Assembly: GCA_903854185.1 (NCBI GenBank)
Contig: CAINVP010000023.1
Span: forward strand, 1 to 32,674
Direction of reading: 5' to 3'
DNA from: an uncultured Actinomycetes bacterium
GTDB taxonomy: Bacteria > Actinomycetota > Actinomycetes > Nanopelagicales > Nanopelagicaceae
DNA: 32,674 nucleotides
Below are positions 1-27,641 of this stretch, piece by piece (the first letter of the stretch is position 1; every line of letters begins with the position of its first letter). The notes under the pieces were generated by a model. That model had not been told where the DNA came from. It ran no database searches and saw nothing but the letters and a program-made list of their open reading frames with translations. The position numbers were made by a program, and so were the translations under genes.

Positions 1-882
1 GCCAATCAATCCAATGGCAAAGAGATCTTTTGCAAGCGTTCCCGCGAGCGGTTTTAACGCTGCCGCAGCTTGAGCCGCATCAGTGATATTGAAGGTGCCT
101 TCAGCATGAAGGGTCGCGGCGCATGTGATGATGACAAAGAAGCCAATGACACCTGTGAGAAGTGAACCAATCCACACATCGGCACGGAGTAACTTCAAAT
201 CATCACGGGTGAGTCGTTTATCAACTGCATAGGACTGGATAAATGCCAGTCCCCACGGAGCTAACGTTGTTCCAAGTGTTGCTGTTGCAATATAAATCGC
301 ATCCCGATTGAGTGGCATCGTCGGTACGACCATGCCGTGAAAGGCACTGCCCCAGTCAGGATGTGCGAGGAAACCAGCAATCACATATGCAATGAAGACG
401 CCGGCGAGAGCAAAGAAGACCTTCTCAACACGAGCAAATGAACCTCGAAGTACGAGTGCAGAGACAACAATCGCTGCGAGTGGAACAGTGAGATATCTGG
501 AGTAACCAAAGAGTTGACCCGCTGCCGCAATTCCTGCGAACTCAGCTGTCATCGTTCCAATATTTGCCAGGACGAGGGCGCTCGCACTGAGCACGCCAGA
601 ACGGGCACCATATTTCTGGCGGACCAGTCCTAAGAGTCCTTGGCGAGTAACAACACCGATTCGCGCTCCTAAATCCTGGAAGAGGATAAGTGCGATGGTG
701 GAGATGCCGAGCGTCCAAATAAGTGAATAACCATACTTTGCACCTAGCTGGGAGTAGGTCGTGATACCAGCCGGATCATCATCAGAGAGACCAGCTAGAA
801 CTCCCGGTCCCATGACGCCTAGAAATGCTGCCAGACGAAGCTTCTTTACGCTCTTCTTCGCCTTCTCTTGCTTAACCGCCAT
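1..882 (-). CDS. NRAMP/SLC11-family divalent metal transporter, 3' end cut by window edge
   Basis: Manual minus-strand translation from ATG at 882: MAVKQEKAKKSVKKLRLAAFLGVMGPGVLAGLSDDDPAGITTYSQLGAKYGYSLIW...TATLGTTLAPWGLAFIQSYAVDKRL...; open to position 1. TM1 and TM6 align with NRAMP proteins. Not in the ORF track because it is open at the edge. Confidence 0.88.
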   Translation of the reverse strand, partial: MAVKQEKAKKSVKKLRLAAFLGVMGPGVLAGLSDDDPAGITTYSQLGAKYGYSLIWTLGISTIALILFQDLGARIGVVTRQGLLGLVRQKYGARSGVLSASALVLANIGTMTAEFAGIAAAGQLFGYSRYLTVPLAAIVVSALVLRGSFARVEKVFFALAGVFIAYVIAGFLAHPDWGSAFHGMVVPTMPLNRDAIYIATATLGTTLAPWGLAFIQSYAVDKRLTRDDLKLLRADVWIGSLLTGVIGFFVIITCAATLHAEGTFNITDAAQAAAALKPLAGTLAKDLFAIGLIG

Positions 883-2210
883 TAGAGCGAACCACCCTGT
901 GCAAAACCACGATTCTCCGTGGAAGTTAATGAGTCAACTAGATCATCAGCGAGGATTCGACCGACTGGCTTTGATTTCTCATCTGTAACAATGATGGATG
1001 AGCCGCGGTTATTAATAAATTCTTCAACGACTTCATCAAGTGGAGTATCGATTCGAACTGCTGTTGGATACGGCGGTCCAACAAGTGTGGCTACTTCACT
1101 AGAAGCCTTTCCCGCAACGAGCTCAATGGTCTGAATGTGGTCGACCAATCGCCCTTTGAGATCGACAACCACAACTCCATCCGAGATATCTCGTTCGCGA
1201 TTATCTACAAGAAGTTTCAACGCACTCGCAATTGTGTCGCTCTCTTTTACTACAAGCATATGAGTCGTCATCATTCCGCCGGCAAGGGTTTCATCGAATG
1301 AGACGAGCTCGCGAAGTTGAGAAGCTGTGCCCTTCTCCATTGCATTGAGAATGGATTCACGGTGCGTATCATCGAGATCACGCAGCACTTCAGCAGATTC
1401 ATCCGGTTCCATACGAGAGAGCAGCTCTGCTGAGTGTTCAGTCGTGAGGCCACGGATCAACCCCTGCAATTCATCATCTTCCATCTCTTCCAGTGCATCC
1501 GCGGCCAGATCTGGATCGAGCATCTTGACCAGTGCGCTCTGTTCGCGTCCTGCAAGATCTTCAATCAGGTCAGCCAAATCTGCCGGGCGAAGTTGACTGA
1601 GCTTTGAGCGAGAACCTGAGGTGCGGACTACTCCCGAACTGTCAGCAAGTGATGCCACTGTCGCCCAGTCAACAACACGCTCTGGTGTTGGGCGCCGACT
1701 AAATGAGCCCGGGAAAATTCTGCGAAGGAAGGAGACGAATGAGATATCTACTCCGACGACCCGAATCTCTTTATCTAACGGGGCTAGGTAGAGGTCAGAG
1801 GAGCGAACCACTCGGAGGCCATCGACATCGACAATCTGATGATCTAACACATCTGCATCAAGCAAAGATTCGCCATCGCGACGAACATAATCAGTAAGGT
1901 TGATGGTCGTTGACGAGAGTCGGATCTCATTATTTGTAAGGGTGGAGATACGGGCGCCGTTAATAAAGGATTTGCGAGCGCCTACTTTGACAATCAGTCC
2001 AGAAACCGGTGGATAGGTCTCTTCACCGTGGCGAACGACGACATCAACCAGCTTGCCGATATCTCTACCGTTCTCATCTCGAACTGGGCAACCAATCAGA
2101 CCAGCAAGTGAGACAAGTGATTCACGAATGCTCTTACGCGCCAGGACGGAATCGCGTCGCCCAACGATGCGCTTAGCCGCGCGGATTGGGGCTGCGGCTT
2201 GGCTCTTCAT
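882..2210 (-). CDS. Soluble PRC-barrel + MgtE N-terminal domain + CBS-pair protein
   Basis: 442 aa; N-terminal PRC-barrel-like segment (LIGCPVRDENGRDIGKLVDVVV), MgtE_N superhelix repeats (LEEMEDDELQGLIRGL...SRMEPDESAEVLRDL), LAGGMMTT motif and two CBS motifs; no hydrophobic TM region. Stop overlaps the start of the NRAMP gene (TAATG). Confidence 0.87.
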   Translation of the reverse strand: MKSQAAAPIRAAKRIVGRRDSVLARKSIRESLVSLAGLIGCPVRDENGRDIGKLVDVVVRHGEETYPPVSGLIVKVGARKSFINGARISTLTNNEIRLSSTTINLTDYVRRDGESLLDADVLDHQIVDVDGLRVVRSSDLYLAPLDKEIRVVGVDISFVSFLRRIFPGSFSRRPTPERVVDWATVASLADSSGVVRTSGSRSKLSQLRPADLADLIEDLAGREQSALVKMLDPDLAADALEEMEDDELQGLIRGLTTEHSAELLSRMEPDESAEVLRDLDDTHRESILNAMEKGTASQLRELVSFDETLAGGMMTTHMLVVKESDTIASALKLLVDNRERDISDGVVVVDLKGRLVDHIQTIELVAGKASSEVATLVGPPYPTAVRIDTPLDEVVEEFINNRGSSIIVTDEKSKPVGRILADDLVDSLTSTENRGFAQGGSL

Positions 2211-2233: not shown

Positions 2234-3364
2234 CTAATTGGTGTGGAGTGAAAGGGGTACGCCCACGATTGATTTAGGGCGAACCATTAACTTCTCGAGG
2301 AGTTCATAGATCGCCTTGCTGGCTGGGGCATCAGGACGAGCGAGAGTGATGGGATCGCCCTCATCCCCACCTTCACGAAGGTGAACATCGAAGGGAATTG
2401 AGGCTAACAATGGAACTGGTGCACCGACGAGGGTGGTCAGGCGATGTGCAGCTTCTGCACCGCCGCCGCTTCCGAAGATAGAGAGCGCCTCGCCGCAATG
2501 TGGACATGGCGTATCGCCCATGTTCTCAACAACGCCAAGAATGTGCTGCTTGAGCTGATGCGCAATGCGACCGGCACGTTCTGCAACCTCTGCTGCTGCC
2601 ACTTGCGGAGTTGTGACAACGAGAATCTCTGAAGCTGGGATGAGTTGCGCAAGGGAGATAGCGATGTCACCCGTTCCAGGTGGCAAATCCAGAAGCAAGA
2701 GGTCAAGATCTCCCCAGTAAGCATCACTTAAGAGTTGCTCCAGAACGCGGTGAAGAAGTGGTCCGCGATAGGCAACCGGATCAGAGCGCTCTGGTTTGAA
2801 CATCTCCATCGAAACTATTTTCACACCAAATTTTTCAACTGGGATAAAGGTCTGATCAATAGCAGTGGGACGCTGCCCAAGCACGCCCATAAGTCGTGGC
2901 ACAGAGTGGCCATAGACATCGGCATCCAAAATTCCAACTTTAAGTCCTTTAGCCGCTGCAGCCACTGCCAGATTTACCGTGACGGAAGATTTTCCGACGC
3001 CACCTTTTCCAGAAGCGATACCAAGAACCCTAGTAAGAGAGTCCGGCTGTGCGAACGGAATAAATTTCTCTTTACCGCCACGAATGAGGGAACGAACATT
3101 TGCACGTTGCTCTTCGCTCATAACGCCGAACGAGAGGTTGAGATCCTTAACGCCCTTAACGCCCATGACCGCATTAGTAACATCGGTGCGCAGGCGATCT
3201 TTCATTGGGCAACCAGAGATGGTGAGGAGAACGTTGAGAGTGACCTTGCCGCCCTTCTCTTCCAGGGTATCGACCATGCCAAGTTCAGTAATCGAACGAT
3301 GAAGCTCTGGGTCAATGACCTTGCTTAGGGCCTCGCGAAGTTCAGTTGTGAGATCTTTACTCAT
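2234..3364 (-). CDS. mrp: Mrp/NBP35 (ApbC) family P-loop ATPase, Fe-S carrier
   Basis: 376 aa; N-terminal DUF59/MIP18-like domain, Walker A GIASGKGGVGKSSVTVNLA, CPHCG motif. Confidence 0.93.
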   Translation of the reverse strand: MSKDLTTELREALSKVIDPELHRSITELGMVDTLEEKGGKVTLNVLLTISGCPMKDRLRTDVTNAVMGVKGVKDLNLSFGVMSEEQRANVRSLIRGGKEKFIPFAQPDSLTRVLGIASGKGGVGKSSVTVNLAVAAAAKGLKVGILDADVYGHSVPRLMGVLGQRPTAIDQTFIPVEKFGVKIVSMEMFKPERSDPVAYRGPLLHRVLEQLLSDAYWGDLDLLLLDLPPGTGDIAISLAQLIPASEILVVTTPQVAAAEVAERAGRIAHQLKQHILGVVENMGDTPCPHCGEALSIFGSGGGAEAAHRLTTLVGAPVPLLASIPFDVHLREGGDEGDPITLARPDAPASKAIYELLEKLMVRPKSIVGVPLSLHTN

Positions 3365-3672
3365 AGGAGATCTGGATCAATCTTGGCGCTCTTGCCGATC
3401 TCTTTAATCTCTTCCGTAGGATTGGCTTCATCTAGCGCATTTCCAATCGTCTTCTTAATGAAATTCTTTGGGCGAAGATCTCCAACTTCAAGATCCTGAA
3501 ATTCTGGCCCGAGGCTATCTTTCAACTCACTCGTTGCATTATTGGCAATCTCTTTAAAGCGCTTGATCCACTTCGCTGCATCACGAGCTACATGCGGAAG
3601 GCGATCTGGACCAATCAGAAAGAGAGCAATCACACCAAGTGCGATGAACTCCCCCGCGCCGATATTGAACAT
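3361..3672 (-). CDS. tatB: Sec-independent protein translocase subunit TatB
   Basis: 103 aa; MFNIGAGEFIALGVIALFLIGPDRLPHVARDAAKWIKRFKE, one TM plus amphipathic helix; 4-bp ATGA overlap with mrp. Confidence 0.85.
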   Translation of the reverse strand: MFNIGAGEFIALGVIALFLIGPDRLPHVARDAAKWIKRFKEIANNATSELKDSLGPEFQDLEVGDLRPKNFIKKTIGNALDEANPTEEIKEIGKSAKIDPDLL

Positions 3673-3688
3673 GGTTGGAAGCCTACCT

Positions 3689-4819
3689 CTACTGCTTGGA
3701 AGCGACCAAAGTTAGTGAAAAGACCTTCTTAGTTCTGCCTCGAAGCACGGTGATGGAGACCCGTTCGCCAACGCTGTGCGACCGGATGGCCACAACTAAC
3801 TCATCAGAGTTTGTGATCTTCTTCCCTGCAAATTCGGTGATGATGTCACCTGGCTTTATGCCAACCTTTGCAGCGGGGCTGCCAGCGAGCACGCCCCCAG
3901 CAATCGGTGCCACTCGGGCGCCATCGCCTTGATAGGTAGTATCAATCTTTACTCCCACAACTGGATAGGTCGCCTTTCCAGTCTTAATGAGTTGATCGGC
4001 AACCTTCTTCGCCTGATTAATTGGAATGGCAAAGCCGAGGCCGATGGAACCAGATTGTGATGAAGCGAAGGTGCTGGTGGTATCAAGCGATGCGATTGCT
4101 GAGTTGATTCCGATAACGGCACCTGTCATATCCACGAGCGGCCCACCTGAGTTACCAGGATTAATAGCTGCATCGGTCTGAATGGCATTGATAAAGGAGC
4201 TCTGAGTCGATGAACCCGTTGAGACGGCACGATCTTTTGCAGAGATGATTCCAGAAGTGACGGTGCCGGCAAGGCCGAGGGGTGAACCAATTGCAATCAC
4301 ACTATCTCCGACGACCACTTTCTCACTATTGCCAAAGGTGAGAGCTGGTGCGCTCGATACATCAATTTTTAATACTGCAATGTCATATTCTGGCGCACGA
4401 CCAATAACATTTGCCGGGTAACTTTCGCCACTTGAGAGTGTGACCTTAATCTGACCACCACTTGTCGCCGCAGATTCAATGACGTGATTATTTGTAAGAA
4501 TGTAACCGTTGCTATCGATAAAGAACCCAGAGCCAGTATCGGCAGCTTGCGCACTCGATGCATCGATATTAACGACGGAGGGCGAGACCTTTGCCGCGAT
4601 TGCCGCAATCGAACCTGGAGCACGCTCAATCGCTGACTGAGTTGAAACGACATTCGCACTATGAACGTTGAGTAACCGATCTAGCCCCGCACCAGTTGCG
4701 CCGGCGAAGAGCGCAATGGCAAGTGCGATGCCTACTGACAAATTTCGCGGGCTCTTCTTCGGCTCCTGGGAGAAGGCTGCTTGGTGTGAACTCATCCACC
4801 ACGGCTGTTCATTACTCAT
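3689..4819 (-). CDS. HtrA/DegP-like trypsin-type serine protease with PDZ domain
   Basis: 376 aa; N-terminal TM; catalytic triad motifs TNNHVIE, YDIAVLKID, NPGNSGGPL; C-terminal PDZ (VLAGSPAAKVGIKPGDIITEFAGKKI). Confidence 0.93.
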   Translation of the reverse strand: MSNEQPWWMSSHQAAFSQEPKKSPRNLSVGIALAIALFAGATGAGLDRLLNVHSANVVSTQSAIERAPGSIAAIAAKVSPSVVNIDASSAQAADTGSGFFIDSNGYILTNNHVIESAATSGGQIKVTLSSGESYPANVIGRAPEYDIAVLKIDVSSAPALTFGNSEKVVVGDSVIAIGSPLGLAGTVTSGIISAKDRAVSTGSSTQSSFINAIQTDAAINPGNSGGPLVDMTGAVIGINSAIASLDTTSTFASSQSGSIGLGFAIPINQAKKVADQLIKTGKATYPVVGVKIDTTYQGDGARVAPIAGGVLAGSPAAKVGIKPGDIITEFAGKKITNSDELVVAIRSHSVGERVSITVLRGRTKKVFSLTLVASKQ

Positions 4820-26354: not shown

Positions 26355-27641
26355 TTAGATACTGCTGATGAGCAATTGCCCGGCTCGCTTGCCTTCTACG
26401 GTCAGCACCTCAATGCGACCCCCGGCAAATTCAACGACATCGTGAAGCTCCGCTATTCGACCAAGGGTATGCATGACATAGCCGCCAGCGGTCTCGTAAG
26501 GCCCTTTAGGCAGGGAGATTCCAGTCTGATCGAGTAGGTCTTCCAGCGAAATCAAGGCATCGACCTCGAACTCGCCGATGCGTGATTGCGGCGTTACTTC
26601 TGAATCCACTTCATCATACTCATCATGAATTTCGCCGATGAAGCATTCAACTAAATCCTCTAACGTAACGATGCCATCCGTACCGCCGTACTCATCCAAC
26701 ACGATAGCGATATGTGATCGCTTTGAGCGCATCTCAGAGAGGGCGGGAAGTACACCCTTAGTTCCGGGTAGATAGATGACTGGGCGCATAATTTCTAAAA
26801 TGAGTTTCTCGCCATCACTCTCTCGTAGCGCTAGCAAATCGCGAATATGAAGAAAGCCGATTACCTCATCGCTACTGCCACGAGTGACAGGGTATCGGGA
26901 GTGGCCACTCTCCAGCGCTTTCTTCTCGGCTTCGGCGATAGTTGTAGCAACATCGAGAAAATCAACTTCAACACGAGGAACCATAATCTCGTGTAGTGAA
27001 AGATCACTGGTATTAAATACCTCTTCCACAATATCTCGCTCTTCTTCGCTAAGCGCTGCATGTCCGACAACGAGATCCATCAACTCAGCTTCAGACATCT
27101 CACTTCGTGATTCATCTGATCGAAGCCCGAAGATTTTCACCACACCATCTGTGGATTTGGAGAGTAACCAGATAACCGGGCGAAAGACTCGAGCGATTCG
27201 GTCAATTGCACCAGCTGATGCGAGTGAGATTGACTCTGTTCTAAAGATTGCCAACCGCTTGGGGACGAGTTCGCCAAAGACAAGTGAGACATAAGCAATA
27301 ACAGTTGTTAAGCCGATGAGTGAGATCGTCGTACTAATACCGTGCGAAAGCCCACGGTCTTCTAGGTATGGAATAACAAAATCTGTACCGATGCGTTCCT
27401 GGCCCAGTGCAGCTGAGAGAAAACCGCAAAATGTTACGCCCACTTGGGCGGCAGCTAAGAAGCGATTTGGATTCTTCGAAAGCTCTGCAACCTTAGCCCC
27501 GCGCTTGCCTCTGCCCTCAAGTTGGCGAACTTGAGATTCGCGAAGTGAGATGAGTGCAATCTCTGCCGCGACAAAGATTCCGGCAACAAGAATGAAAGCT
27601 AAGACCAGGGCTATATCAAAAAGTAAGCGTGACATCATCAA
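26355..27641 (-). CDS. CNNM/HlyC-CorC family protein (DUF21 + CBS pair + CorC_HlyC)
   Basis: 428 aa; AAEIALISLRESQVRQLEGRG, EIMVPRVEVDFLDV, DEYGGTDGIVTLEDLVECFIGEIHDEYDE. Confidence 0.93.
   Translation of the reverse strand: MMMSRLLFDIALVLAFILVAGIFVAAEIALISLRESQVRQLEGRGKRGAKVAELSKNPNRFLAAAQVGVTFCGFLSAALGQERIGTDFVIPYLEDRGLSHGISTTISLIGLTTVIAYVSLVFGELVPKRLAIFRTESISLASAGAIDRIARVFRPVIWLLSKSTDGVVKIFGLRSDESRSEMSEAELMDLVVGHAALSEEERDIVEEVFNTSDLSLHEIMVPRVEVDFLDVATTIAEAEKKALESGHSRYPVTRGSSDEVIGFLHIRDLLALRESDGEKLILEIMRPVIYLPGTKGVLPALSEMRSKRSHIAIVLDEYGGTDGIVTLEDLVECFIGEIHDEYDEVDSEVTPQSRIGEFEVDALISLEDLLDQTGISLPKGPYETAGGYVMHTLGRIAELHDVVEFAGGRIEVLTVEGKRAGQLLISSI

Follow-up and report, generated by a model that had tools for sequence, protein, structure and literature searches.

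Two overlapping genes at the edge of a contig from an uncultured member of the Nanopelagicaceae (CAINVP010000023.1) probably encode a two-protein Mg2+ uptake system, in which a detached MgtE-type sensor would hold an NRMT-type NRAMP transporter inactive at high cytosolic Mg2+. We give this reading moderate confidence, and among the explanations weighed, gating of the NRMT by Mg2+ appears to be the best one for the sequence data. The window, i.e. the whole stretch of DNA that was analysed, comprises 32,674 nucleotides. Both the pairing and the gating idea have been published before (Shin et al. 2014, PMC4072509), and the window pair is a further example. The remark in the first-pass annotation that its author was not aware of experimental work on the pairing has to be corrected, since Shin et al. 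described and co-expressed such a pair. Our study adds data on co-occurrence, a survey of ligand positions, and the DUF1003, membrane-fused and PRC-only partners.

Layout of the locus

The following features were annotated in the window.

1-882, reverse strand: NRMT-type NRAMP transporter, residues 1-294 of 418, the rest cut off by the contig edge (Pfam, structure-relative search)
259-270, reverse strand: NRMT metal-site motif TxxA in TM6, T205-T-L-A208 (alignment to EleNRMT)
766-777, reverse strand: NRMT metal-site motif DxxG in TM1, D36-P-A-G39 (alignment to EleNRMT)
882-886, reverse strand: stop/start overlap TAATG with a single shared base in the 882-884 region (sequence)
882-2210, reverse strand: sensor with two PRC-barrel-like regions, MgtE_N and a CBS pair, without TM segment (ORF, Pfam, hydropathy, AlphaFold2 model)
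921-1274, reverse strand: CBS pair, residues about 313-430 (Pfam, alignment to Thermus MgtE)
1290-1592, reverse strand: MgtE_N helical domain, residues 207-307 (Pfam, alignment to Thermus MgtE)
1650-1874, reverse strand: PRC-like beta region 2, residues about 113-187 (model strands 114-187; not Pfam-matched in the window protein)
1911-2108, reverse strand: PRC-barrel region 1, residues about 35-100 (Pfam PF05239 at 37-63; model strands 42-98)
2234-3364, reverse strand: mrp, ApbC-type P-loop ATPase, in a co-directional run with the sensor
3361-4819, reverse strand: tatB and htrA, in the run shared with mrp and the sensor; a context common to DUF1003-type loci

A soluble MgtE_N/CBS protein of 442 aa whose reading frame ends within the first codon of an NRAMP gene had been described from the letters alone, and reading frame, domains and overlap were all found as described. 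The stop codon of the sensor and the start codon of the transporter have one base in common (CTCTAATGGCG; in wider sequence context TCGCTCTAATGGCGG), which suggests that translation of the two is coupled. The transporter is incomplete in the window (294 residues) because the contig ends there (G000:C23:1). It was completed to 418 aa with contig C50 of the same assembly, which shares 130 identical overlapping bases. On C50 the NRMT gene is followed by an ORF for an EamA-like drug/metabolite-type transporter (L037:505 onward), recognised by eye only. On the other side, mrp lies 23 bases upstream of the window sensor, and it also neighbours sensor-DUF1003 pairs in other families.

The transporter is of the NRMT type

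The transporter matched the Pfam Nramp family with an E-value of 6.6e-66, which upheld its earlier assignment to this family. Its nearest solved relative was EleNRMT of Eggerthella lenta (7qia, E 6.6e-65), followed by the next NRAMP structure at 1.6e-21. A DxxG-TxxA/T signature replacing DxxN-AxxM marks Mg2+-transporting NRMTs, and the threonine of this motif is required for Mg2+ (PMC8806188). The window protein has the DxxG-TxxA site in common with EleNRMT, together with the helix-3 Glu and the lack of both TM6 proton-path histidines; the positions occupied by W and N in EleNRMT are W and I in the window. Among 146 collected reading frames of NRMT, 140 contain DAGG or DPAG, and almost all have TTxA-P-W. 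By its sequence the window transporter is an NRMT, and Mg2+ transport is predicted for it. The expression 'NRAMP-like pore' used in the first-pass annotation is better replaced by 'NRMT carrier'. In G051, an NRMT closely related to EleNRMT (E 4.7e-145 to 7qia) adjoins a 625-aa sensor with a membrane region of its own, whereas the window sensor is soluble.

A soluble MgtE-type sensor

Pfam matches in the window sensor covered PRC (37-63), MgtE_N (207-307, E 2.8e-22) and CBS, and no match to the MgtE membrane domain PF01769 was obtained. A 19-residue hydropathy scan revealed no TM segment. The second beta region is the equivalent of residues 119-160 of the G027 homologue, which Pfam does assign to PRC. 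Sequence searches with the sensor returned solely MgtE cytosolic domains and CBS proteins. The AlphaFold2 model, built with 45 homologues (mean pLDDT 87.7, pTM 0.80), shows two beta regions, a helical domain and a CBS pair. Over about 235 residues, its C-terminal half resembled MgtE cytosolic domains with target-normalised TM-scores of 0.82-0.89, values that refer to isolated domains; the structures compared included Mg2+-bound 2yvy.

The Mg2+-ligand residues of Thermus MgtE have been assigned (PMC5882242), and most of the positions in the N and CBS domains are conserved in the sensor. In MgtE_N, the Thermus residues E59, D91 and D95 correspond to D238, D270 and E274 of the window protein, and in the CBS pair D247 and D250 correspond to D423 and D426. 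At the position of D226 the window protein has R402, and it lacks the plug-helix ligands E258/D259. Among 30 soluble NRMT-linked sensors, an acidic residue was found at the positions of E59 in 29 (D/E), D91 in 27 (D), D95 in 30 (D/E), D247 in 30 (D) and D250 in 24 (D/E). In the same alignment the plug ligands are gone from the soluble sensors, except for D259 in two, and they are present in all 11 membrane-fused forms. This match is suggestive but not proof of Mg2+ binding, because acidic residues are common in MgtE_N and the CBS aspartate is frequent. The sensor shares the MgtE_N and CBS fold with the Thermus MgtE channel (PDB 2yvx, 2zy9, 2yvy), from which it differs by the missing membrane domain and plug helix, the additional PRC-barrels and the separate membrane partner.

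Conservation of the gene pair

The genes for sensor and NRMT were neighbours on a single strand in each of the 25 genus genomes, usually with mrp upstream, which indicates that the pairing is not due to chance. When genome contigs were scanned for NRMT, 80 loci were obtained from Actinomycetota, Chloroflexota, Dormibacterota, Bacillota, Pseudomonadota and others. In 66 of these loci a sensor gene immediately precedes NRMT on its strand, and in 3 it is adjacent in another arrangement; 7 loci were cut by contig ends and 4 had no sensor. The neighbourhood survey proposed in the first-pass annotation therefore came out in favour of a conserved pair. Of the 66 distant pairs 21 overlap, about 20 by 4 bases and one by 1 base. 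On one contig, two divergent sensor-NRMT pairs lie next to each other (L123:3-5617).

In a sample of 100 genomes spread over the phylum, with matches over 320 bits taken as clear NRMTs, 40 genomes encode a PRC-type sensor and 28 of those 40 also a clear NRMT. Conversely, a sensor is encoded in all 28 genomes with a clear NRMT, and none of the 60 sensor-free genomes has one, the best that they offer being two weak matches, at 214 and 247 bits. For this co-occurrence, Fisher p was 1e-15, or 4e-7 by family, neither value being corrected for shared ancestry. Genomes of the families f33, f36, f37 and f38 carry both genes or neither, and across at least 16 families the two were gained or lost together. 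A natural sensor-NRMT fusion was found in none of 80 + 50 loci; long ORFs resembling such fusions proved to consist of a sensor and an MgtE-like membrane region.

Gene order by itself cannot prove contact between sensor and NRMT. The operon might be shared for expression only, with the sensor acting elsewhere, for example together with the upstream mrp, or persisting as a relic. The close proximity of mrp to the window sensor and its presence beside DUF1003-type sensors would fit this explanation. Against it speak the presence of the sensor although mrp, tatB or htrA occurred in the flanks of 0 of the 80 scanned NRMT loci, and the joint gain and loss of both genes. We regard a purely transcriptional link as very unlikely.

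Other partners of the sensor family

In the class, sensors located away from NRMT adjoin a DUF1003 gene, which they usually overlap, with mrp following and tatB and htrA nearby. Among the full-length sensors of the phylum sample, 14 were adjacent to DUF1003 and 21 to NRMT. Rv1232c-Rv1231c of M. tuberculosis presumably represents this actinobacterial PRC-MgtE_N-CBS/DUF1003 pair. Pairs of this type resemble the window pair in sensor architecture, in the mrp/tatB/htrA context and in the overlapping or abutting gene for a membrane protein. They differ in their membrane partner, DUF1003, which has two TM helices and is of unknown function, and in their sensors, which form a clade of their own (support 100) in a tree of 58 sensors. 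The notion that the window sensor is a DUF1003-type sensor with a switched partner was rejected, since the tree groups it with the NRMT-linked sensors (100% SH-aLRT).

Both types of pair occur within one genome in G123 and G027, so the assortment of sensors follows the partner and not the species. In G027 an NRMT 66% identical to that of the window lies beside a 304-aa sensor without CBS (L032:7031-9180, G027:C1:235031-237180), in addition to a full sensor-DUF1003 pair. Mutual exclusion of NRMT and DUF1003 was considered and dismissed: it holds in the 41 relatives except G027 and fails in the wider phylum, where G042, G055, G098 and G111 combine an NRMT pair with an unlinked DUF1003. In the genus of the window, the NRMT-type pair occupies the neighbourhood of the DUF1003-type pair of related families, with rearranged gene order.

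A further group of sensors carries a membrane region of its own or leaves the place beside NRMT to PRC-only proteins:

L173, L162, L164, L166, L168, L174: PRC-MgtE_N-CBS fused to an MgtE-like membrane region
L190:2711-3313, L191, L193, L167:6254-6841, L169:873-1496: proteins of about 190-208 aa that consist of tandem PRC-barrels alone, encoded immediately after NRMT

In the phylum sample, 6 sensors continue into a C-terminal membrane region, and neither NRMT nor DUF1003 lies next to them. All 6 genomes encode NRMT at another site, where the next gene specifies a stand-alone tandem-PRC protein of about 190-200 aa. Seven further fused sensors, relatives of the E. lenta system among them, adjoin NRMT. 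Three of the fused sensors tested matched the MgtE membrane family, one of these below the cut-off. The Coriobacteriia-type membrane region (L175, L177) gave only a modest profile match to MgtE (hhalign 93%, 11% identity, with a mixed input set), and neither hydropathy nor Pfam established it as an MgtE remnant. That the fused forms represent ordinary MgtE channels is doubtful, as a residue-by-residue comparison of the L162 protein with Thermus MgtE showed that the pore aspartate (D432) is replaced. Every NRMT inspected in the phylum sample adjoins a PRC-containing protein, even if the MgtE_N/CBS part is encoded elsewhere, which suggests that PRC serves as a dock.

It is conceivable, and proposed here tentatively, that the PRC-MgtE_N-CBS family constitutes an exchangeable Mg2+-sensing subunit of several unrelated membrane proteins, either fused to an MgtE-like membrane remnant or paired with NRMT or DUF1003. 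In that case DUF1003 would have a so far overlooked part in Mg2+ transport or homeostasis, and within the genus of the window the NRMT pair would have taken the place of the DUF1003 pair at the same neighbourhood.

Proposed mechanism and previous work

In the two-protein system that we favour, NRMT would be the membrane carrier. At high cytosolic concentration, Mg2+ would bind to acidic residues between the MgtE_N and CBS domains of the sensor, which would become compact and in this shape keep NRMT inactive; falling Mg2+ would make the sensor release NRMT. The PRC-barrels most likely dock the sensor onto NRMT. Uptake by a carrier that runs on the membrane potential would load the cell with too much Mg2+ if nothing shut the carrier, in the way that cytosolic Mg2+ closes MgtE- and CorA-type channels. 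EleNRMT operates without proton coupling (PMC8806188), and a brake on uptake therefore makes sense. From the comparative data we infer contact between sensor and NRMT, Mg2+ binding by the sensor, inhibition at high Mg2+, docking via PRC, and Mg2+ as the main substrate.

According to Shin et al. (PMC4072509), most NrmT genes adjoin an MgtE-N-like gene, for which cytoplasmic feedback or a chaperone role was proposed. These operons contain the same adjacent genes as the window and were interpreted with the same regulatory idea. The window pair differs from them in lacking an M-box, and PRC-barrels, CBS, DUF1003 and membrane-fused forms are not mentioned in the accessible part of that paper. Two NrmTs of C. 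acetobutylicum transported Mg2+ without a partner gene, so transport does not depend on the sensor. When the A. capsulatum pair was co-expressed, Mg2+ rescue did not improve further. That assay looked for better rescue at low Mg2+, which a sensor acting as an inhibitor would not give, and its result is no test of inhibition. The literature searched, whose range excluded most subscription journals, contained no later functional study of the pair and no report of the DUF1003 pairing, the fused forms or the PRC-only partner.

The MgtE_N/CBS protein may alternatively be a Mg2+ buffer, a chaperone or an assembly factor of NRMT and not a gate. The chaperone was raised as an alternative by Shin et al. 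(PMC4072509), and an assembly factor would be compatible with tight co-translation as well as with the PRC-only partner beside NRMT in 6 genomes. A switch is indicated instead by the retained interdomain ligand positions, which are those that close MgtE, and control over a membrane protein by the occurrence of this sensor in a form fused to an MgtE-like membrane region. Thus, we consider a buffering or assembly role improbable. Counted against gating are the A. capsulatum co-expression, the Mn2+ behaviour of its NrmT, R402 in place of D226, and the four sensor-less NRMT loci. The first-pass idea of a separate sensor that regulates an NRAMP-fold transporter agrees with the comparative tests, namely neighbourhood, co-occurrence, the mostly kept ligand positions and the lost plug helix, but it was not an unstudied idea.

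Mg2+ physiology and riboswitches

The MgtE membrane domain PF01769 was found in 0 of 41 relatives, and no genus genome gave an MgtA-type ATPase above the cut-off. The genome that contains the window has CorA, as do some relatives. A complete CorA was not found in the genus genomes G002, G004, G010, G012, G015, G017 and G019, which are 95-99% complete. With MgtE, the MgtA type and complete CorA not found, a Mg2+ importer would otherwise be missing in these genomes. A CNNM/CorC-type domain (PF01595) is encoded in the window at 27057-27605 on the reverse strand, and CNNM occurs in 41 of 41 relatives, so NRMT is not the sole Mg2+-linked protein. The direction of transport by CNNM/CorC is debated.

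No M-box or other Mg2+ riboswitch was matched by Rfam in the window, and among 15 related loci an M-box was detected only in L098 (Alicyclobacillus). There it lies at 3614-3779 on the forward strand just upstream of a sensor-less NRMT, with a second, divergent NRMT-like gene nearby. In the operons described by Shin et al., an M-box lies upstream of a subset of NrmT genes only (PMC4072509).

These data also bear on the metal. The sensor could control uptake of Mn2+ or of a broader range of divalent ions, with NRMT being a Mn2+ transporter here and the MgtE-type domains answering to Mn2+. EleNRMT moves Mn2+ besides Mg2+ (PMC8806188), and the A. capsulatum NrmT, which has an MgtE-like neighbour, is described by Shin et al. 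as mainly a Mn2+ transporter that rescued Mn2+ transport, and Mg2+ transport only weakly (PMC4072509). On the other hand, DPAG/TTLA is the NRMT motif with the threonine needed for Mg2+ (PMC8806188), the L098 NRMT is placed under a Mg2+ riboswitch, and the set of Mg2+ importers in the genus is reduced as outlined above. On balance, Mn2+ as the regulated ion seems unlikely.

Implications

The role of the MgtE-like neighbour of NrmT was left open by Shin et al. (2014), and the comparative evidence makes this question testable. Should gating of NRMT by the sensor prove true, a sensing module would have left a channel and joined a carrier with another fold, and a regulatory domain would have outlived its own pore. 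The DUF1003 pairing provides a first functional lead for a widespread family of unknown function. In several nearly complete genomes of the genus, no classical Mg2+ importer other than NRMT was found, and hence the pair may be essential in those genomes.
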